Shown here: positions 5,688 through 19,727 of the stretch, in pieces
How the letters are laid out: every line of letters begins with the position of its first letter
Numbering within the stretch: the first letter of the stretch is position 1
NCBI GenBank assembly: GCA_021805985.1
Contig: JAJZDN010000048.1
Coordinates: 1 to 32,668, forward strand
Direction of reading: 5' to 3'
Length of the DNA: 32,668 nucleotides
Origin: Planctomycetota bacterium
Lineage (GTDB): Bacteria; Planctomycetota; Phycisphaerae; WQYP01
Notes under the pieces: model-generated
Database searches by the model: none
What the model was told of the DNA's origin: nothing
The model's input: the letters and a program-made list of their open reading frames with translations, nothing else
Translations under genes and position numbers: made by a program

Positions 5688-7112
5688 GTGAAAGAACCAA
5701 TCTCGGATATGGATAGAATTATGCTTCTCATACAAGAGGGGGAGGGACTTTCAGTCGAATTCAAAGAGCGTTACACACCGCGCATCGACGAGGATATTGT
5801 TGCGTTCTCCAATGCTCGTGGAGGAACACTTCTGCTTGGCGTCAGGGATGACAATACCATCCTGGGCGAGCACCTGACCAACGACCTAAAAGCACGGATC
5901 AATAGCTTGTCAAGAAATTGCAACCCTGGCATTTCCATTGAAGCAAAGCAAATCGGAAAAATTGTGGCCATTACCGTACCGGAGGGTTCGGAGAAACCAT
6001 ATGCATGCAGTGCCGGATACTACCGCAGGTTAAACGGCTCCACACAAAAGATGAGCCATGCCGAATTGCGGTCGATGTTCACGGATAATGCCCCGATTTT
6101 ATTTGAGGAAAGAATCGCAAATGGCTTAACCTTTGATGACGTTTCCCGGGCGAAAGTGCGCAATTTTCTCAAGGAAGCCGAACTGCGCATTGGCAACACC
6201 GGCGTGCCTGATTTCCTGCGCAGCCTTGGTGCCGCGCATGGAACTTCCATCAACAACGCCGGCGTTCTCTTTTTTGCCACGGATGTGTATCGACATTTGC
6301 GTCAGGCACAACTGACTCTCCTCGCGTTTAAAGGAATCACAAAAGATGTTATTTATGACCGTCGAGATGTGCGTGATGACCTCTTGACGCAATTCAACGA
6401 GGCCATGGCATTTATCCGCAAGCATCTAAATGTCCGAAGCGAAATTCAAGGAGTCAACCGGGAGGATATTTATGAGATTCCCCTCGAGGTCATGCGCGAA
6501 GCGATCGTGAACGCGCTGATGCACCGGGACTACAACATCACCGGCACGCAAGTCAGCGTCGATATTTACGATGACCGGGTAGAGATTACCAATCCCGGCA
6601 GCCTTCCAAAAGGGCTGTCGCCCAGCAACCTCGGCAAGGTCTCAATTCGGCGCAATGAAATATTATCCGACCTTTTTTTTCGCCTGCACAAAGTCGAGCG
6701 CGTAGGAATGGGTATCCAGAAAATGAAGAAATCCATGTTGATAGCGGGGCTGCGCGCACCGGAATTCCAGCCCAGTGAGTTTTTTACCGCCGTATTTCAT
6801 CGACCCGCCAATTTTGCATTGAAATCCTCGAAAGCTGATGTGACCTTGAATGCGGCACCGAACGCGACAACGCGTTCGGAGATAAGTTCGGAGATAAGTT
6901 CGGAGATAAGTTCGGAGATAAGTTCGGAGATAAGTTCGGAGAAACTTCTGTTGCTTCTGACCGACAGAAGCACGACCAGTGCTCGTGAAGCTGCCGCAAT
7001 ATTGGGCTTATCCCCGCGGGCCGTGGAGAAGCGTATAGCGATATTAAAAGCCCACGGAAGGCTTAAAAGAATTGGCCCGGACAAAGGCGGGCGTTGGGTG
7101 GTGATAAAATGA
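5688..7112 (+). CDS. AlbA_2 (Schlafen-like) / RecG-like ATPase-fold transcriptional regulator
   Basis: The protein has 474 residues with a GTG start and GGAG about seven bases upstream. Residues about 15-130 match the AlbA_2 (former AAA_4) nucleic-acid-binding domain (EFKERYTPRIDEDIVAFSNA, then GGTLLLGVRDD). Residues about 190-370 match the HATPase_c_4 'ATP-dependent helicase RecG-like' module, with REAIVNALMHRDY at 270-282 and DRVEITNPGSLP. A repetitive linker built from ISSE units follows, then a winged helix at about 420-474 (STTSAREAAAILGLSPRAVE). The family is usually annotated as a putative transcriptional regulator; it is not a real RecG helicase. It follows mutL after 16 bp and could be read through from it, but its patchy distribution among bacteria suggests an accessory gene. 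Confidence 0.88.
   Translation: MKEPISDMDRIMLLIQEGEGLSVEFKERYTPRIDEDIVAFSNARGGTLLLGVRDDNTILGEHLTNDLKARINSLSRNCNPGISIEAKQIGKIVAITVPEGSEKPYACSAGYYRRLNGSTQKMSHAELRSMFTDNAPILFEERIANGLTFDDVSRAKVRNFLKEAELRIGNTGVPDFLRSLGAAHGTSINNAGVLFFATDVYRHLRQAQLTLLAFKGITKDVIYDRRDVRDDLLTQFNEAMAFIRKHLNVRSEIQGVNREDIYEIPLEVMREAIVNALMHRDYNITGTQVSVDIYDDRVEITNPGSLPKGLSPSNLGKVSIRRNEILSDLFFRLHKVERVGMGIQKMKKSMLIAGLRAPEFQPSEFFTAVFHRPANFALKSSKADVTLNAAPNATTRSEISSEISSEISSEISSEISSEKLLLLLTDRSTTSAREAAAILGLSPRAVEKRIAILKAHGRLKRIGPDKGGRWVVIK
6875..6942 (+). repeat. 12-bp in-frame tandem repeat encoding ISSE units
   Basis: Five perfect copies of TTCGGAGATAAG plus an 8-base partial copy lie inside the AlbA_2/RecG-like gene, between its ATPase-fold module and its winged helix. 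The period is a multiple of three, so gain or loss of copies changes linker length without breaking the frame. The repeat also keeps several other frames open, which creates spurious long open frames on the opposite strand. Confidence 0.97.
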
Positions 7113-15649: not shown

Positions 15650-16378
15650 TCATTTCCGTTTTGCCGTTTGCGTTCCGTTGGGCCGGGGCACGATGGGGTC
15701 CGCTGTGATAAATATGTCAACCCGTCCAGTGAACTTGCCGTTCCTCCCCTGGTACAACTTTGCCTGCCATAGCTGCTGCCCAGCGGGTTTCGGTCCAACG
15801 CGATAGCGGATCGCTGTTGTCAAAAAACGCCGAAGCGATATCCCTTTGACGTTGAATCGCATCGGCGTGGTGAACAGCGCGGGGTGGCGAGGCAACGATA
15901 TTCCACCGCTTCCGCCACCACTCCCACCGCTTCCAAAATTATAAAAGCGAACCCCAGGAAATGCTTTGGCGAAGACGTGCGATTCCAAATTCACTATGCT
16001 CATAGTCCCATGGAGCGTCAGCCTGCGGTTCAATGGATTGCCCTTCCATTTCAATGCCTGCCGGTCCGCCAAGTGAATCACATGCCGATTGCCCGAGCGT
16101 CGCCAGATTCCTATATCGGGGAGTTGATTCCGCAGGAGTTTTAGTTTCTGATGTGTGCTTAATCCTGCTCGCGGGATTTGTATTCGTGCGCCGTAAAGCC
16201 CAGTGCGGGTAACTTTGCCAGCCGGAACAACCTCCTCTTGGGTATAGATGAACTTTGCGTGCAACATCAAATAGAACCCCAAAAATGTCCTCCCACCACT
16301 CGGAACGGCCTTGGCGGCCGCCACAGACATGACAGCAAGGAAGACCACGAAACATATTGTCGGTTTTGCGTTCTGCAT
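15650..16378 (-). CDS. Secreted protein of unknown function, GRVDI-type C-terminus
   Basis: The protein has 242 residues. A signal peptide occupies residues about 7-24 (ICFVVFLAVMSVAAAKA). The mature part has IHLADRQALKWKGNPLNRRL, a Gly/Ser-rich spacer GSGGSGGGSGG near residue 155, and ends with QLWQAKLYQGRNGKFTGRVD followed by IFITADP and a basic tail. The C-terminal block is clearly homologous to a decayed frame at 19500-19600 (LWSAHVYCGKNGKPTGRVDI). AAAGG lies 12 bases before the ATG, at the end of the decayed element upstream. It is the last intact gene of the minus-strand secreted-protein run. I do not recognise a family. Confidence 0.65.
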   Translation of the reverse strand: MQNAKPTICFVVFLAVMSVAAAKAVPSGGRTFLGFYLMLHAKFIYTQEEVVPAGKVTRTGLYGARIQIPRAGLSTHQKLKLLRNQLPDIGIWRRSGNRHVIHLADRQALKWKGNPLNRRLTLHGTMSIVNLESHVFAKAFPGVRFYNFGSGGSGGGSGGISLPRHPALFTTPMRFNVKGISLRRFLTTAIRYRVGPKPAGQQLWQAKLYQGRNGKFTGRVDIFITADPIVPRPNGTQTAKRK

Positions 16379-16394: not shown

Positions 16395-16678
16395 TCAACT
16401 ATTGGCGCAACGCGGATAGGCATTACCAGTTCCGTTCCAAGTTTGATTCGTCTCTGTAACCATAACCGCCACGTCACACTCCACCCAAATCTGCCAATAC
16501 CCCTCAATCATTCGCGTAAATGTCAACGTCGCATTCGACGATGCTGACGGCTGAGTCGGGGTAATGGGTCAGTATAACTGCCCGATGGCGGTGAGCCAAA
16601 GGCGTCGGCCCGCAAAGCCTTGTACTGCACATTGGCAACCGACCAATCGCACCGGGCGGAAAATGACGGCACCGGCAT
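16395..16678 (-). pseudogene. Decayed copy 1 of the SGSYTD element, between two secreted-protein genes
   Basis: From an ATG overlapping the upstream gene's stop (TAATG at 16680-16676), a frame encodes RCDWSVANVQYKALRAD and AFGSPPSGSYTD, then ends at 16523. Homology continues in another frame: PTQPSASSNATLTFTRM, then GYWQIWVECDVAV and TNQTWNGTGNAYPR, ending at a TGA that sits inside the TTGAAAGG ahead of the next gene. A relative at 19239 keeps SGSYTD and PTRPSTSLNATLVFT in one frame, so this copy has a frameshift. The 51-residue 5' part could still be translated by coupling, but this is unproven. Confidence 0.6.
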
Positions 16679-17790
16679 TAATAATACTGGGGCACGGCGA
16701 CATTCGTCCATGGCGACCAAGTGTGCGTATGCGCCAGCTCTACGCGCACGCGATACACGCCGGCTAGGGTCATGTCATACATGCAACTCAAATTGATTGG
16801 CTCGGAATATTTGTACACCATGCCGGGCTTGAGCGTGTACGCCTTGTGTTTCAGGCCCCGCACCGGATGCTTCGCAAGCCAGCGCCCGTAGGCGGTTATG
16901 GCTGGCACCGCAACCCTCGTGACAACCTCGTGTGGCTTAGGCGCTCTGACGTGCCTCACGCGGTCCAGAGAAGAAGGCCCTTGAACCTGAATTGCCCTGA
17001 AATCGACAAACGGGTTGCCGGTCAGACGCAGCTTTATGCGAGATCTGCCGTAGTTGGCGTATTCGGCGTCGATGGTGATTGGCCCCGGCCCTTTCGCATC
17101 CGCGTTGATCAGCAACACTCGGATGCCTGTGGCGTTCGCGCGCGGGACCACTTTCACCGGGGGACCAAGCGCAGCGGCTGGAATTTTTCCGTAAGGTGCC
17201 AGCACGGTGACCCGCAGCGGCTGGCTCACCAGCACGTTGCGCGCGATACGTTTCTGCGTTGCACTGCGGTCCCCGTCCTGCACCAGAAAGATCATTTGTT
17301 CCCGTTTGGTGGACCACAACGGCCCAGGTATACCAACCCGTAGCCCGTATTTGGTTGTCACGCGGACGAGATATCGCCCCGGGAGCGTCATGTCCAAGTA
17401 TTGGCCGACGGGGATGAGATGGCGGTAATCGCCGCTATTTCCGGGAGCGATTAGCCCAATCGGGGTAAATGAAAAGCCGTTTGATGACCACGGTCTAACC
17501 GCCTCCCTGCCAAAGGCGGTCGGCGCAACCTGCGCCGCATGGGGTCCATACGTACCACGGCAGAGGAAGGTATATTCGGGTGCCGAGCGGAATTGGCAGA
17601 ATGTTAAAGGCAATTTGGCTTGATTTCGGAAATAGGCCCGAACCGGTAGCGCAGCACCCGAAGTGTAGACCTTGGCCGCGGAGGTTACGTGAAGCGATAC
17701 GCCGCGCACGGCCGCATCTGATTTCGCAGGAGCCAGTGCGAACAACGCGGACAATGCAAGCACGGGGATGGCTAACGTGAAAATTTTCAT
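16678..17790 (-). CDS. Secreted protein, paralogue B of a tandem pair
   Basis: The protein has 370 residues. AAAGG lies eight bases before the ATG. A classical signal peptide spans residues 1-26 (IPVLALSALFALAPAKSDAA). The mature protein is beta-rich and shares, throughout its length, blocks with the gene at 18038: QYLDMTLPGRYLVRVTTKYG, PLRVTVLAPYGKIP, GNPFVDFRAIQVQGPSS, KPHEV and YSEPINLSCMYDM, then GVYRVRVELAHTHTWSPW. YL-DMTLPG-Y and the C-terminal block suggest two Ig-like or related sandwich domains, each with a strand pattern ending in 'G-Y-x-V-R-V'. The function is unknown. Its start overlaps the end of the upstream element's frame (ATGA) and its stop overlaps the next element's ATG (TAATG). 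Confidence 0.75.
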   Translation of the reverse strand: MKIFTLAIPVLALSALFALAPAKSDAAVRGVSLHVTSAAKVYTSGAALPVRAYFRNQAKLPLTFCQFRSAPEYTFLCRGTYGPHAAQVAPTAFGREAVRPWSSNGFSFTPIGLIAPGNSGDYRHLIPVGQYLDMTLPGRYLVRVTTKYGLRVGIPGPLWSTKREQMIFLVQDGDRSATQKRIARNVLVSQPLRVTVLAPYGKIPAAALGPPVKVVPRANATGIRVLLINADAKGPGPITIDAEYANYGRSRIKLRLTGNPFVDFRAIQVQGPSSLDRVRHVRAPKPHEVVTRVAVPAITAYGRWLAKHPVRGLKHKAYTLKPGMVYKYSEPINLSCMYDMTLAGVYRVRVELAHTHTWSPWTNVAVPQYY

Positions 17791-18029
17791 TTGTCGGGCC
17801 TTTCAATCATTGGGGGAGTACCGGAGGATTGTAGACGATGCTCCAGGTGGGATATTTGTTTGTCAATTGCGTCGTTGCGTTGCCCGCCGCCGGGAGAATA
17901 TTGGTGAGCGTCCATGGAATCAGTATAACTGCCTGACGGTGGCGGACCAAAGGAATCCGCCCGCAATGCTTTGTACTGCACCTTGGCAACCGACCAACCG
18001 CACCGGGCGGAAAATGGCGGTGCCAGCAT
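17787..18029 (-). pseudogene. Decayed copy 2 of the SGSYTD element, frame still open
   Basis: An 80-codon frame starts with ATG nine bases after the stop of the 18038 gene. It encodes RCGWSVAKVQYKALRAD and SFGPPPSGSYTD, and its TGA overlaps the start of the next gene as ATGA. Relative to copy 1, 13 bases differ over the 26 codons from Trp to the Asp of SGSYTD, and 11 of these are in third positions, so this part was coding under selection. After SGSYTD the frame diverges, while a +1 frame keeps GNATTQLTNKYPTWSIVYNP, indicating a frameshift. It may be a relic or a translationally coupled small protein. Confidence 0.55.
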
Positions 18030-18037
18030 TAATAATA

Positions 18038-19192
18038 TTATGGCACGGTGACATTCACCCATGGCGACCAGATATGCGTATGGGCCAGCTTCACGCGGAC
18101 CCGATACACGCCGCTCACGCTCATATCATACATGCAACTCAAGTTGACCGGCTCGGAATAGTTGTAGATCACGTCAGGTTTGAGCACATAGGTTTTCCGT
18201 TTCAAGTCTTTGATAGGATGTTTGCTCAGCCATTGGCCATAGGCGGTCAAGGAGGCAGGGTTCTTGTGAATGTACGGCACCTCATGGGGCCTGGGCTTTT
18301 GGACCGTAGTCGACTCGCCAGGAAAACTCGGCCCGGTAACTTGGATCTCTGAAAAATCAACCAACGGGTTGCCGGCAAGACGCACTTTTGCCGCGCTCTG
18401 GCCGTCATCTACACATTGGACACAAAGAGTAATTGGCCCCGGGCCATTGGCCACCGGATTGGTAAGCAAAAGATGGATACCGGCAGATAGTTTACCGGAT
18501 TGCAGTGGAGTTGTTTTGGCCGACGGCTTTGTCGCCACAACGGGAACTTTCCGGTAGGGCGCAAAAACGGTGATCCGCAGCGGGTTGCTGGTCAATACCT
18601 TGTGCCCAATGAGACGGCTTTTTGCACCCAAAAATCCGTCTTGGATCAGGAATGCGACCTTCGTCGGCTTGATGATGATGTAGTGAGGATGATCCAGTGT
18701 CTGCGGCTGTAGGATGCCAACATATAAACCGTACTTCGTAGTTGCACGCATAACATATAATCCCGGCAAGGTCATGTCGAGGTATCGGCCGACATAGATG
18801 GAAGTATGCGCCACCTCTATGTTGTAAAGAGCCGATTTCCCACTGACAATGAAAAGTGCTGGTGGAAACCCAAATATATTCACCCCGAGGGATTGCTCAG
18901 AACGGATACCGTGGTGTGTGGCCGTTACCCGTCGGTGCAGCACGCCCGCTCCGGCCCCAAATAGGAATGTATAACGGGCCGCCAAATCGTCAGCAATCAC
19001 CAGGGGCAATTTCCCTATATTGTGAATTTTAATCGTAACGGGGACTAGAGACCCCGAAACATACCGGTTGGCGCTGCTGGTCATGATCAAGGCCCCGTAC
19101 TTGGCTGGGTTCGGGATGAGCTTAACTTTACCAAACCCGATGCTGGGCCATAATAATATGCCAACGGCTATTATGCTTGAAATCGTTTTCAT
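18038..19192 (-). CDS. Secreted protein, paralogue A of a tandem pair
   Basis: The protein has 384 residues from MKTISSIIAV; the upstream TTG at 19216 adds only a basic stretch and is less likely. The signal peptide is about residues 1-21 (SIIAVGILLWPSIGFG). It is paralogous over its whole length to the gene at 16678, sharing RYLDMTLPG, TTKYGLYVGI, NPLRITVFAPY, GNPLVDFSEIQVTGPS, KPHEV and YSEPVNLSCMYDM, then GVYRVRVKLAHTHIWSPW. Divergence is substantial (many conservative changes), so the duplication is not recent. A VTIKIHNIGKLPLVI stretch near residue 53 resembles an intracellular-proteinase-inhibitor or Ig-like strand pattern. The function is unknown. Confidence 0.75.
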   Translation of the reverse strand: MKTISSIIAVGILLWPSIGFGKVKLIPNPAKYGALIMTSSANRYVSGSLVPVTIKIHNIGKLPLVIADDLAARYTFLFGAGAGVLHRRVTATHHGIRSEQSLGVNIFGFPPALFIVSGKSALYNIEVAHTSIYVGRYLDMTLPGLYVMRATTKYGLYVGILQPQTLDHPHYIIIKPTKVAFLIQDGFLGAKSRLIGHKVLTSNPLRITVFAPYRKVPVVATKPSAKTTPLQSGKLSAGIHLLLTNPVANGPGPITLCVQCVDDGQSAAKVRLAGNPLVDFSEIQVTGPSFPGESTTVQKPRPHEVPYIHKNPASLTAYGQWLSKHPIKDLKRKTYVLKPDVIYNYSEPVNLSCMYDMSVSGVYRVRVKLAHTHIWSPWVNVTVP

Positions 19193-19238
19193 AGAATCTT
19201 TTCTTTTCAAATTCAATGTTTCGGCCTTAACGGCAAAA

Positions 19239-19727
19239 TCATTTGCTGCGACTCCAAGTACTTGTCAGGGTGCCGCAGCGCGGGGTAAACACCAGTGTGG
19301 CGTTCAGCGATGTTGACGGCCGCGTCGGGCTGATTTGATCAGTATAACTGCCCGATGGCCGCGAGCCAAAGGCGTCGGCCCGCAGGCGGTCGGCCTGCAA
19401 GGCTGGGTACTTTGCGTTTGCGCTGTACCGGCACCCCACTCGCGGTTGGCGGGGATTGCTTGTTCCGGGGAGCAATTTCATTTCCCTTTTGCACACGCGT
19501 AAGCCCCCCGCCGGTTGGGTCGCCGGGTTTGCCAGGATAGAAATGTCAACGCGGCCCGTGGGTTTGCCGTTTTTGCCACAGTATACGTGTGCACTCCAAA
19601 GTTGCGGGCCTGATACGTGTGCATCCCACCGTTGCTGGTCAGATCCGTTAATTTCCCAGTTGAGTGGGAAGTGGTATTTTCTGCTGTTTTCTCGGAACTT
19701 GGAAAGCGGGCGTGGTGGTTGGAAGTT
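19239..19727 (-). pseudogene. Start-less frame: decayed secreted-protein tail plus SGSYTD element copy 3
   Basis: A stop-free frame of about 160 codons without a plausible start overlaps the 3' end of the lipoprotein gene in a different frame. From about 19640 it encodes DQQRWDAHVSGPQLWSAHVY, then CGKNGKPTGRVDISILANP, which matches the C-terminus of the 15650 gene. It then encodes RADAFGSRPSGSYTD and PTRPSTSLNATLVFTP with no frame break. Near 19380 a short duplication gives QADRLRAD. I read it as the residue of a lost secreted-protein gene fused to the best-preserved frame of the element. Confidence 0.6.

Follow-up and report, generated by a model that had tools for sequence, protein, structure and literature searches.

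Relics of an N-terminal module between open partner genes in a Phycisphaerae genome: a possible relic array of putative effector-partner cassettes

Introduction

Passages of Poole et al. 2011 (PMC3150448) on the orphan cdiA-CT/cdiI modules of CDI/Rhs systems propose that recombination in the conserved part reloads the expressed gene. The gene family described here is like the orphans set out in those passages in that it combines a conserved N part, a variable C part and a matched downstream gene, and in that its downstream fragments keep varying lengths of the conserved part, generally without start signals. It is unlike CDI/Rhs in several respects. No CdiA, two-partner-secretion or RHS-repeat domain appeared in Pfam scans of the intact N-module proteins and their neighbors, the shared module lies at the very N terminus, and the C parts (~120–380 aa) matched no known toxin domain. 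The A-type partners carry N-terminal hydrophobic stretches, as in exported proteins, and the upstream gene encodes a Reg_prop propeller protein. Orphan immunity arrays of the Vibrio cholerae T6SS, according to the relevant portion of PMC5361080, likewise keep partner genes while effector genes are displaced; the leftover in Vibrio is the displaced effector 3′ end, whereas here it consists of 5′ module relics between the partners. Polymorphic toxin systems, for which sections of PMC3482391 list planctomycetes among the hosts, resemble the present family in C-terminal diversity, cassettes and partner genes, but no toxin or immunity family in Pfam or NCBIfam matched here. At the level of titles and listings, a literature search returned no description of such a system in Phycisphaerae.

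The window, by which we mean the whole analyzed stretch of 32,668 nt, is contig 19 of a 4.68-Mb, 197-contig assembly (G000) of a Planctomycetota bacterium. It was compared within a set of 61 genomes (its own and 60 relatives, one genome per species), 28 of which belong to the same family, f1. A first-pass annotation had noted that two copies of a repeated element in the window differ mostly at third codon positions and had concluded that they diverged as protein.

Results

The repeated element is the 3′ part of an N-terminal module of ~193 residues, and matches to this module were found in 17 of the 61 genomes, all within family f1 (17/28 inside, 0/33 outside). Intact members are ORFs of 480–570 aa with a hydrophobic N-terminal segment, the conserved module and a differing C-terminal part. 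The module consists of the hydrophobic segment and ~130 residues containing W..VQYKALQAD.FGSPPSGSYTDSISP; past the hydrophobic segment the consensus is ..TYAGPVTVTANMG.FSPNPV.V...A..SL.A.YTPPSGV.EG.LSA.YDWSV..VQYKALQAD.FGSPPSGSYTDSISPTQPS.SS.ATLTFTPLIAGYWQVS.SCSVTVTDTKTNQYW.GSANAGPEDLTS. In the own genome a 27-residue stretch matches eight places, and an 85-residue query matches 16 places at E values up to 10, several of them at chance level. We predict from these sequences a lineage-specific family of exported proteins that combines a fixed N-module with a C-terminal part of one type out of at least six. Scans with Pfam and NCBIfam gave nothing above threshold for the N, A or STN proteins, the sole matching gene being the upstream one (Reg_prop), and PDB sequence profiles gave chance-level matches alone. 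AlphaFold2 models of A370 (5 sequences, mean pLDDT 46.5) and of an intact N-C056 protein (4 sequences, 28.8) were both unusable. A C064-like query against 199 genomes of the phylum, a sample with few genomes of the family, matched G000 alone. Several module copies (L089, L102, L109, L111 and L085) lie at or near contig ends, as is expected where near-identical repeats break assemblies, so that array sizes are probably underestimated.

To survey the genomic setting, 34 regions were tiled with family queries; the resulting tallies count places, not independent events, and the C-type, partner and STN names are working labels coined in this analysis. The module directly follows a ~960-aa Reg_prop propeller gene in 17 places, and the C types of these first-position copies are C055 (3), C056 (4), C064 (3), C034 (2), C071 (1), C062 (1) and N895-like (3), the last so named after the long ORF, N895, that gave them their highest score. 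The units downstream frequently begin with a 5′-truncated module. The C type goes with the gene that comes next: C055 is followed by an F3 partner in 6/6 places, C056 by an A partner in 9/10 (G000:C33, G007:C194, G010:C15, G010:C94, G010:C21, G011:C32, G026:C67, G027:C291 and G024:C16), and C034 by an STN partner in 12/13. The C056 exception, in G005, is cut short and has no A gene next to it, and the C034 exception is the tail in the window itself, with no STN gene after it. C062 is paired with F8 in both of its places and C071 with P489 in one of two, and the pairing of C064 is loose (X586, X465, H491 and once STN). The family shows three traits of polymorphic toxin-immunity systems, namely interchangeable C parts, a type-matched downstream gene and orphan modules that retain pieces of the conserved N part. 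In the own genome, eight stretches of the propeller family lie on contigs C174, C137, C69, C52 and C61, none of which is shared with a module copy.

Within the window, the minus strand reads in order a 3′-end relic of an STN-type partner gene (19667–19482), copy 3 (19400–19281), A392, copy 2 with its tail (18014–17807), A370, copy 1 (16663–16410), STN242 and the C-terminal tail of a C034-type N-module gene (15426–15367; tblastn E 5e-5, with translation). The STN relic was found by tblastn, with 73% over 55 residues (19482–19646) and a weaker match up to 19667; inside it, two adjoining 30-nt copies that are 77% alike occupy 19583–19642. Copy 1 covers module residues ~106–189 in two frames, as tblastn matches and translations indicate. 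It is 5′-truncated and has a 1-nt frameshift directly after SGSYTD, beyond which the module continues in the new frame (PITPTQPSASSNATLTF...), and this 3′ half matches intact ORFs with an E value of 3e-16. Copy 2, likewise 5′-truncated, holds residues ~106–140, a large internal deletion and a C-terminal tail. Its homology ends 6 nt past SGSYTD and resumes in the apparent C-terminal end of a family member, ~34 codons including the stop codon (TNILPAAGNATTQLTNKYPTWSIVYNPPVLPQ) that resemble the terminus of a C056-type gene. This resemblance is weak (E 0.4–1.3); of the six ORFs matched, four belong to the C056 type or are like it and align at their ends, and a C056-like tail fits the A gene, A370, that comes next. 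Copy 3 (residues ~116–155) is truncated at both its 5′ and 3′ ends and stays in frame through LVFTP. The first-pass annotation had both copies 1 and 2 frameshifted in different ways after SGSYTD, which holds for copy 1 but not for copy 2, where there is no frameshift at that point. All three module genes are broken; they are homologous to intact ORFs elsewhere and carry disabling lesions (truncation, frameshift, internal deletion), and by these signs they are almost certainly pseudogene fragments of the predicted exported-protein family.

The adjoining partner genes A392, A370 and STN242 have open frames while the module genes next to them are broken. A370 (16678..17790, minus strand; 370 aa) is a partner gene of the C056 type with an N-terminal hydrophobic stretch, A392 (18038..19216, minus strand) is its paralogue (47% identity, dS 1.9, dN/dS 0.28), and STN242 (15650..16378, minus strand; 242 aa) is a partner gene of the C034 type. 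Partners decay too, as the presence of A genes as fragments (C101) and of the STN fragment in the window indicates. The own genome has nine complete A- or STN-type partner ORFs; among the ten module copies from its four arrays used in codon counting, a single one (C71, 490 aa) is open over its full length, another two (C33 and C71) are long ORFs lacking the 5′ end, and the others are relics. Elsewhere in the window, the gene at 5688–7112 contains a short tandem repeat (6784–6999) encoding SEISSEISSEISSE.

The element reads WSVANVQYKALRADAFGSPPSGSYTD in copy 1 (16645..16568, minus strand) and WSVAKVQYKALRADSFGPPPSGSYTD in copy 2 (17996..17919, minus strand). Over these 26 codons 13 of 78 bases differ, and instead of being spread evenly the differences fall 2, 0 and 11 on the three codon positions (exact multinomial P 3.4e-4; the probability of at least 11 of 13 in one named position class is 2.1e-4, or 6.4e-4 over three frames). 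Nine of the 12 differing codons are synonymous, and the first-pass count is reproduced exactly. Across 32 shared codons the NG86 method gives a dN of 0.073 and a dS of 0.69 (ratio 0.11). The view that the copies of this stretch diverged as protein is borne out, in that relatives have intact ORFs that are homologous to it and show the same third-position bias. Pairs of intact genes show a third-position excess in the 5′ part, with ratios of 0.05–0.31 wherever dS was computable; the codon comparisons were made without the weak own-genome matches C158:6996, C120, C18 and C40. Against the intact gene G007f, the 5′ part yields a pN of 0.111 for copy 1 and 0.125 for copy 2, and the intact pair G002f-G007f a pN of 0.112; copy 3 is more worn in this part (pN 0.193). 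For the 3′ part, pN against G007f is 0.237 for copy 1 and 0.115 for the intact G002f. It had been suggested that selection acted earlier or acts only on the 5′ part, with a dN/dS ratio far below 1 there and near 1 in the 3′ part. This was half right: the 5′ part is free of excess amino acid change and the 3′ part of copy 1 decays, but the ratios of the latter (0.16–0.64) are not near 1, and selection in place on the truncated copies is neither needed nor supported.

The order of truncation and divergence can be read from the flanks. The A370 stop codon and the spacer to copy 1 (16646..16680, minus strand) align gaplessly with copy 2, and their five differences in 35 nt fall 1, 3 and 1 on the codon positions, with no third-position bias. 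The junction between A stop and module is common to copies 1 and 2 and the relic C33r, and a further deletion is common to copies 1 and 2, which together place truncation before the split. The truncated junction common to copies 1 and 2 makes it improbable that the bias accumulated where the copies now lie; changes after truncation are expected to be neutral, which does not fit so strong a bias, and two observations point to exchange. Nine of the 13 differing sites, in an unbroken series, have the C33r base in copy 1 but not in copy 2, and at five of these nine copy 2 has the C158r base. The identical run of copy 1 and C33r is 42 nt long (permutation P 0.003; these P values are uncorrected for 12 pairs); that of copy 2 and C158r is non-significant (P 0.31), and the longest between copies 1 and 2 is 18 nt (P 0.73). 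Synonymous divergence of copies 1 and 2 in the module (10/19) exceeds divergence in the spacer (5/35), which is short (Fisher P 0.004); with 4-fold sites only, the comparison is 6/13 versus 5/35 (P 0.047).

Long identical tracts also occur in relatives, and in some of their genomes the exchange of module segments is evident. In G002 the first and a downstream copy share 127 identical nt (permutation P 5e-4) amid more diverged sequence, despite their different C types (C055 and C062), and the similarity stops at a palindrome. Two downstream copies of G023 share 135 identical nt (P 5e-4) and differ in their upstream parts, and the first and a downstream copy of G018 share 97 identical nt, a run that extends into the C part (P 0.0005–0.001 over the G002 and G018 pairs). 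The corresponding pair of G007, with 30 nt, is at chance level (P 0.31). Of 12 downstream copies from genomes that have a first copy, 5 are closest in third positions to a first copy in the same genome and the other seven (G018p, G018q, G023o1, G023o2, G008o, G004o and G004p) to that of another genome, so concerted evolution is not general. This tally, together with the age of the A370/A392 paralogues given by their dS, would suit a history of gene death alone, in which two old, functional paralogues diverged while under selection and truncation came late, without recombination, and such a history would account for the bias. We nevertheless hold it to be unlikely, because the shared junction and deletion put truncation first and because alleles are shared block-wise and long identical tracts exist in relatives. 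Module segments have likely been exchanged between copies, and on the sequence comparisons such exchange explains the bias better than does selection in place on truncated copies.

Less probable still is continued translation of the truncated 5′ parts into short proteins kept by purifying selection. The ORFs concerned (16523–16720 and 17787–18062) are both open and overlap the ends of the A genes, the 5′ parts lack excess nonsynonymous change, and the junction and deletion common to copies 1 and 2 imply that some divergence followed truncation. Against this, the spacer codons that both short ORFs would need carry the 1, 3, 1 pattern (few sites), the upstream frame differs in the related relic C33r, the C termini of the two ORFs are unrelated, and synonymous divergence exceeds that of the spacer.

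A palindrome (CTCCCGATGCATCGGGATAA-like) directly after SGSYTD(SIS) replaces part of the module in some copies and shifts the frame in most of them. It occurs in 10 of the 34 copies that are not behind a propeller gene (plus one weak case) versus 0 of the 17 that are, the places being G002:C324:6087, G023:C137, C135, C100 and C98, two in G018:C132, G005:C18, and G004:C123 and C13 (loci L082, L084, L089, L109, L111, L116, L099, L117 and L108). The frameshift of copy 1 and the break of copy 2 fall at nearly the same point. Exact copies were found in the module alone when the palindrome was sought as a dispersed repeat; looser matches beyond the module number six in G014, with two mismatches, and one each in G004, G005, G002, G012 and G035, and the palindrome may be one of a broader class of such sequences. 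In SGSYTD (16569–16582 and equivalent positions elsewhere), 32 of the 35 copies that encode the Thr use ACT for it, compared with a 10% share of ACT among Thr codons in the ORFs counted. The preference possibly reflects DNA-level constraint or recent common origin; a codon-level test for such constraint at TATACT was no more than suggestive, the copies not being independent. That the element is a dispersed REP or MITE whose codon pattern arose by chance is hardly credible: a 14-mer is indeed exactly repeated at seven places with an imperfect palindrome inside, but all seven lie within copies of one protein-coding module and hence within one gene family rather than in unrelated contexts, the homology runs on into intact ORFs, and the bias (P 3e-4) recurs across intact genes.

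Discussion

We consider it probable that copies 1–3 are pseudogene relics with an inherited bias, that their module segments were swapped after truncation, and that the window represents an array of orphan partner genes, the partners having been kept. The third-position bias of copies 1 and 2 would then derive from functional modules, and homologous recombination after truncation would have left them holding different alleles rather than differences that arose in place. The module genes would have decayed and A392, A370 and STN242 would have been retained, a pattern seen in effector-immunity arrays.

In this family the conserved module could serve as a homology arm through which downstream cassettes of C part and partner are loaded anew after the propeller gene, in line with the proposal for cdiA-CT orphans (PMC3150448). 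G002 and G018, though not all genomes (G007), show a trait of silent cassettes, namely long stretches of identity shared by the first and a downstream copy of one genome. Displaced units would decay yet retain their partners, like the Vibrio arrays (PMC5361080). Judged by gene content and order, the window is possibly a relic array of putative polymorphic effector-partner cassettes; its layout resembles that of bacterial toxin-immunity arrays, with toxin and immunity roles that are putative. More speculative, and in our estimation rather doubtful, is a full, undescribed effector-partner system of this Phycisphaerae family. In it, an exported protein with a constant N-module would take up interchangeable C domains from orphan cassettes downstream through homologous recombination in the module, the palindrome would put many stored copies out of frame at a single position after SGSYTDSIS, and partners would pile up as orphan immunity-like genes.

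In copies that are dead, a codon-position signal can be the trace of exchange with living genes and not of present selection. If the arrays are indeed effector-partner cassettes, they would add a family without recognized domains to the polymorphic systems.
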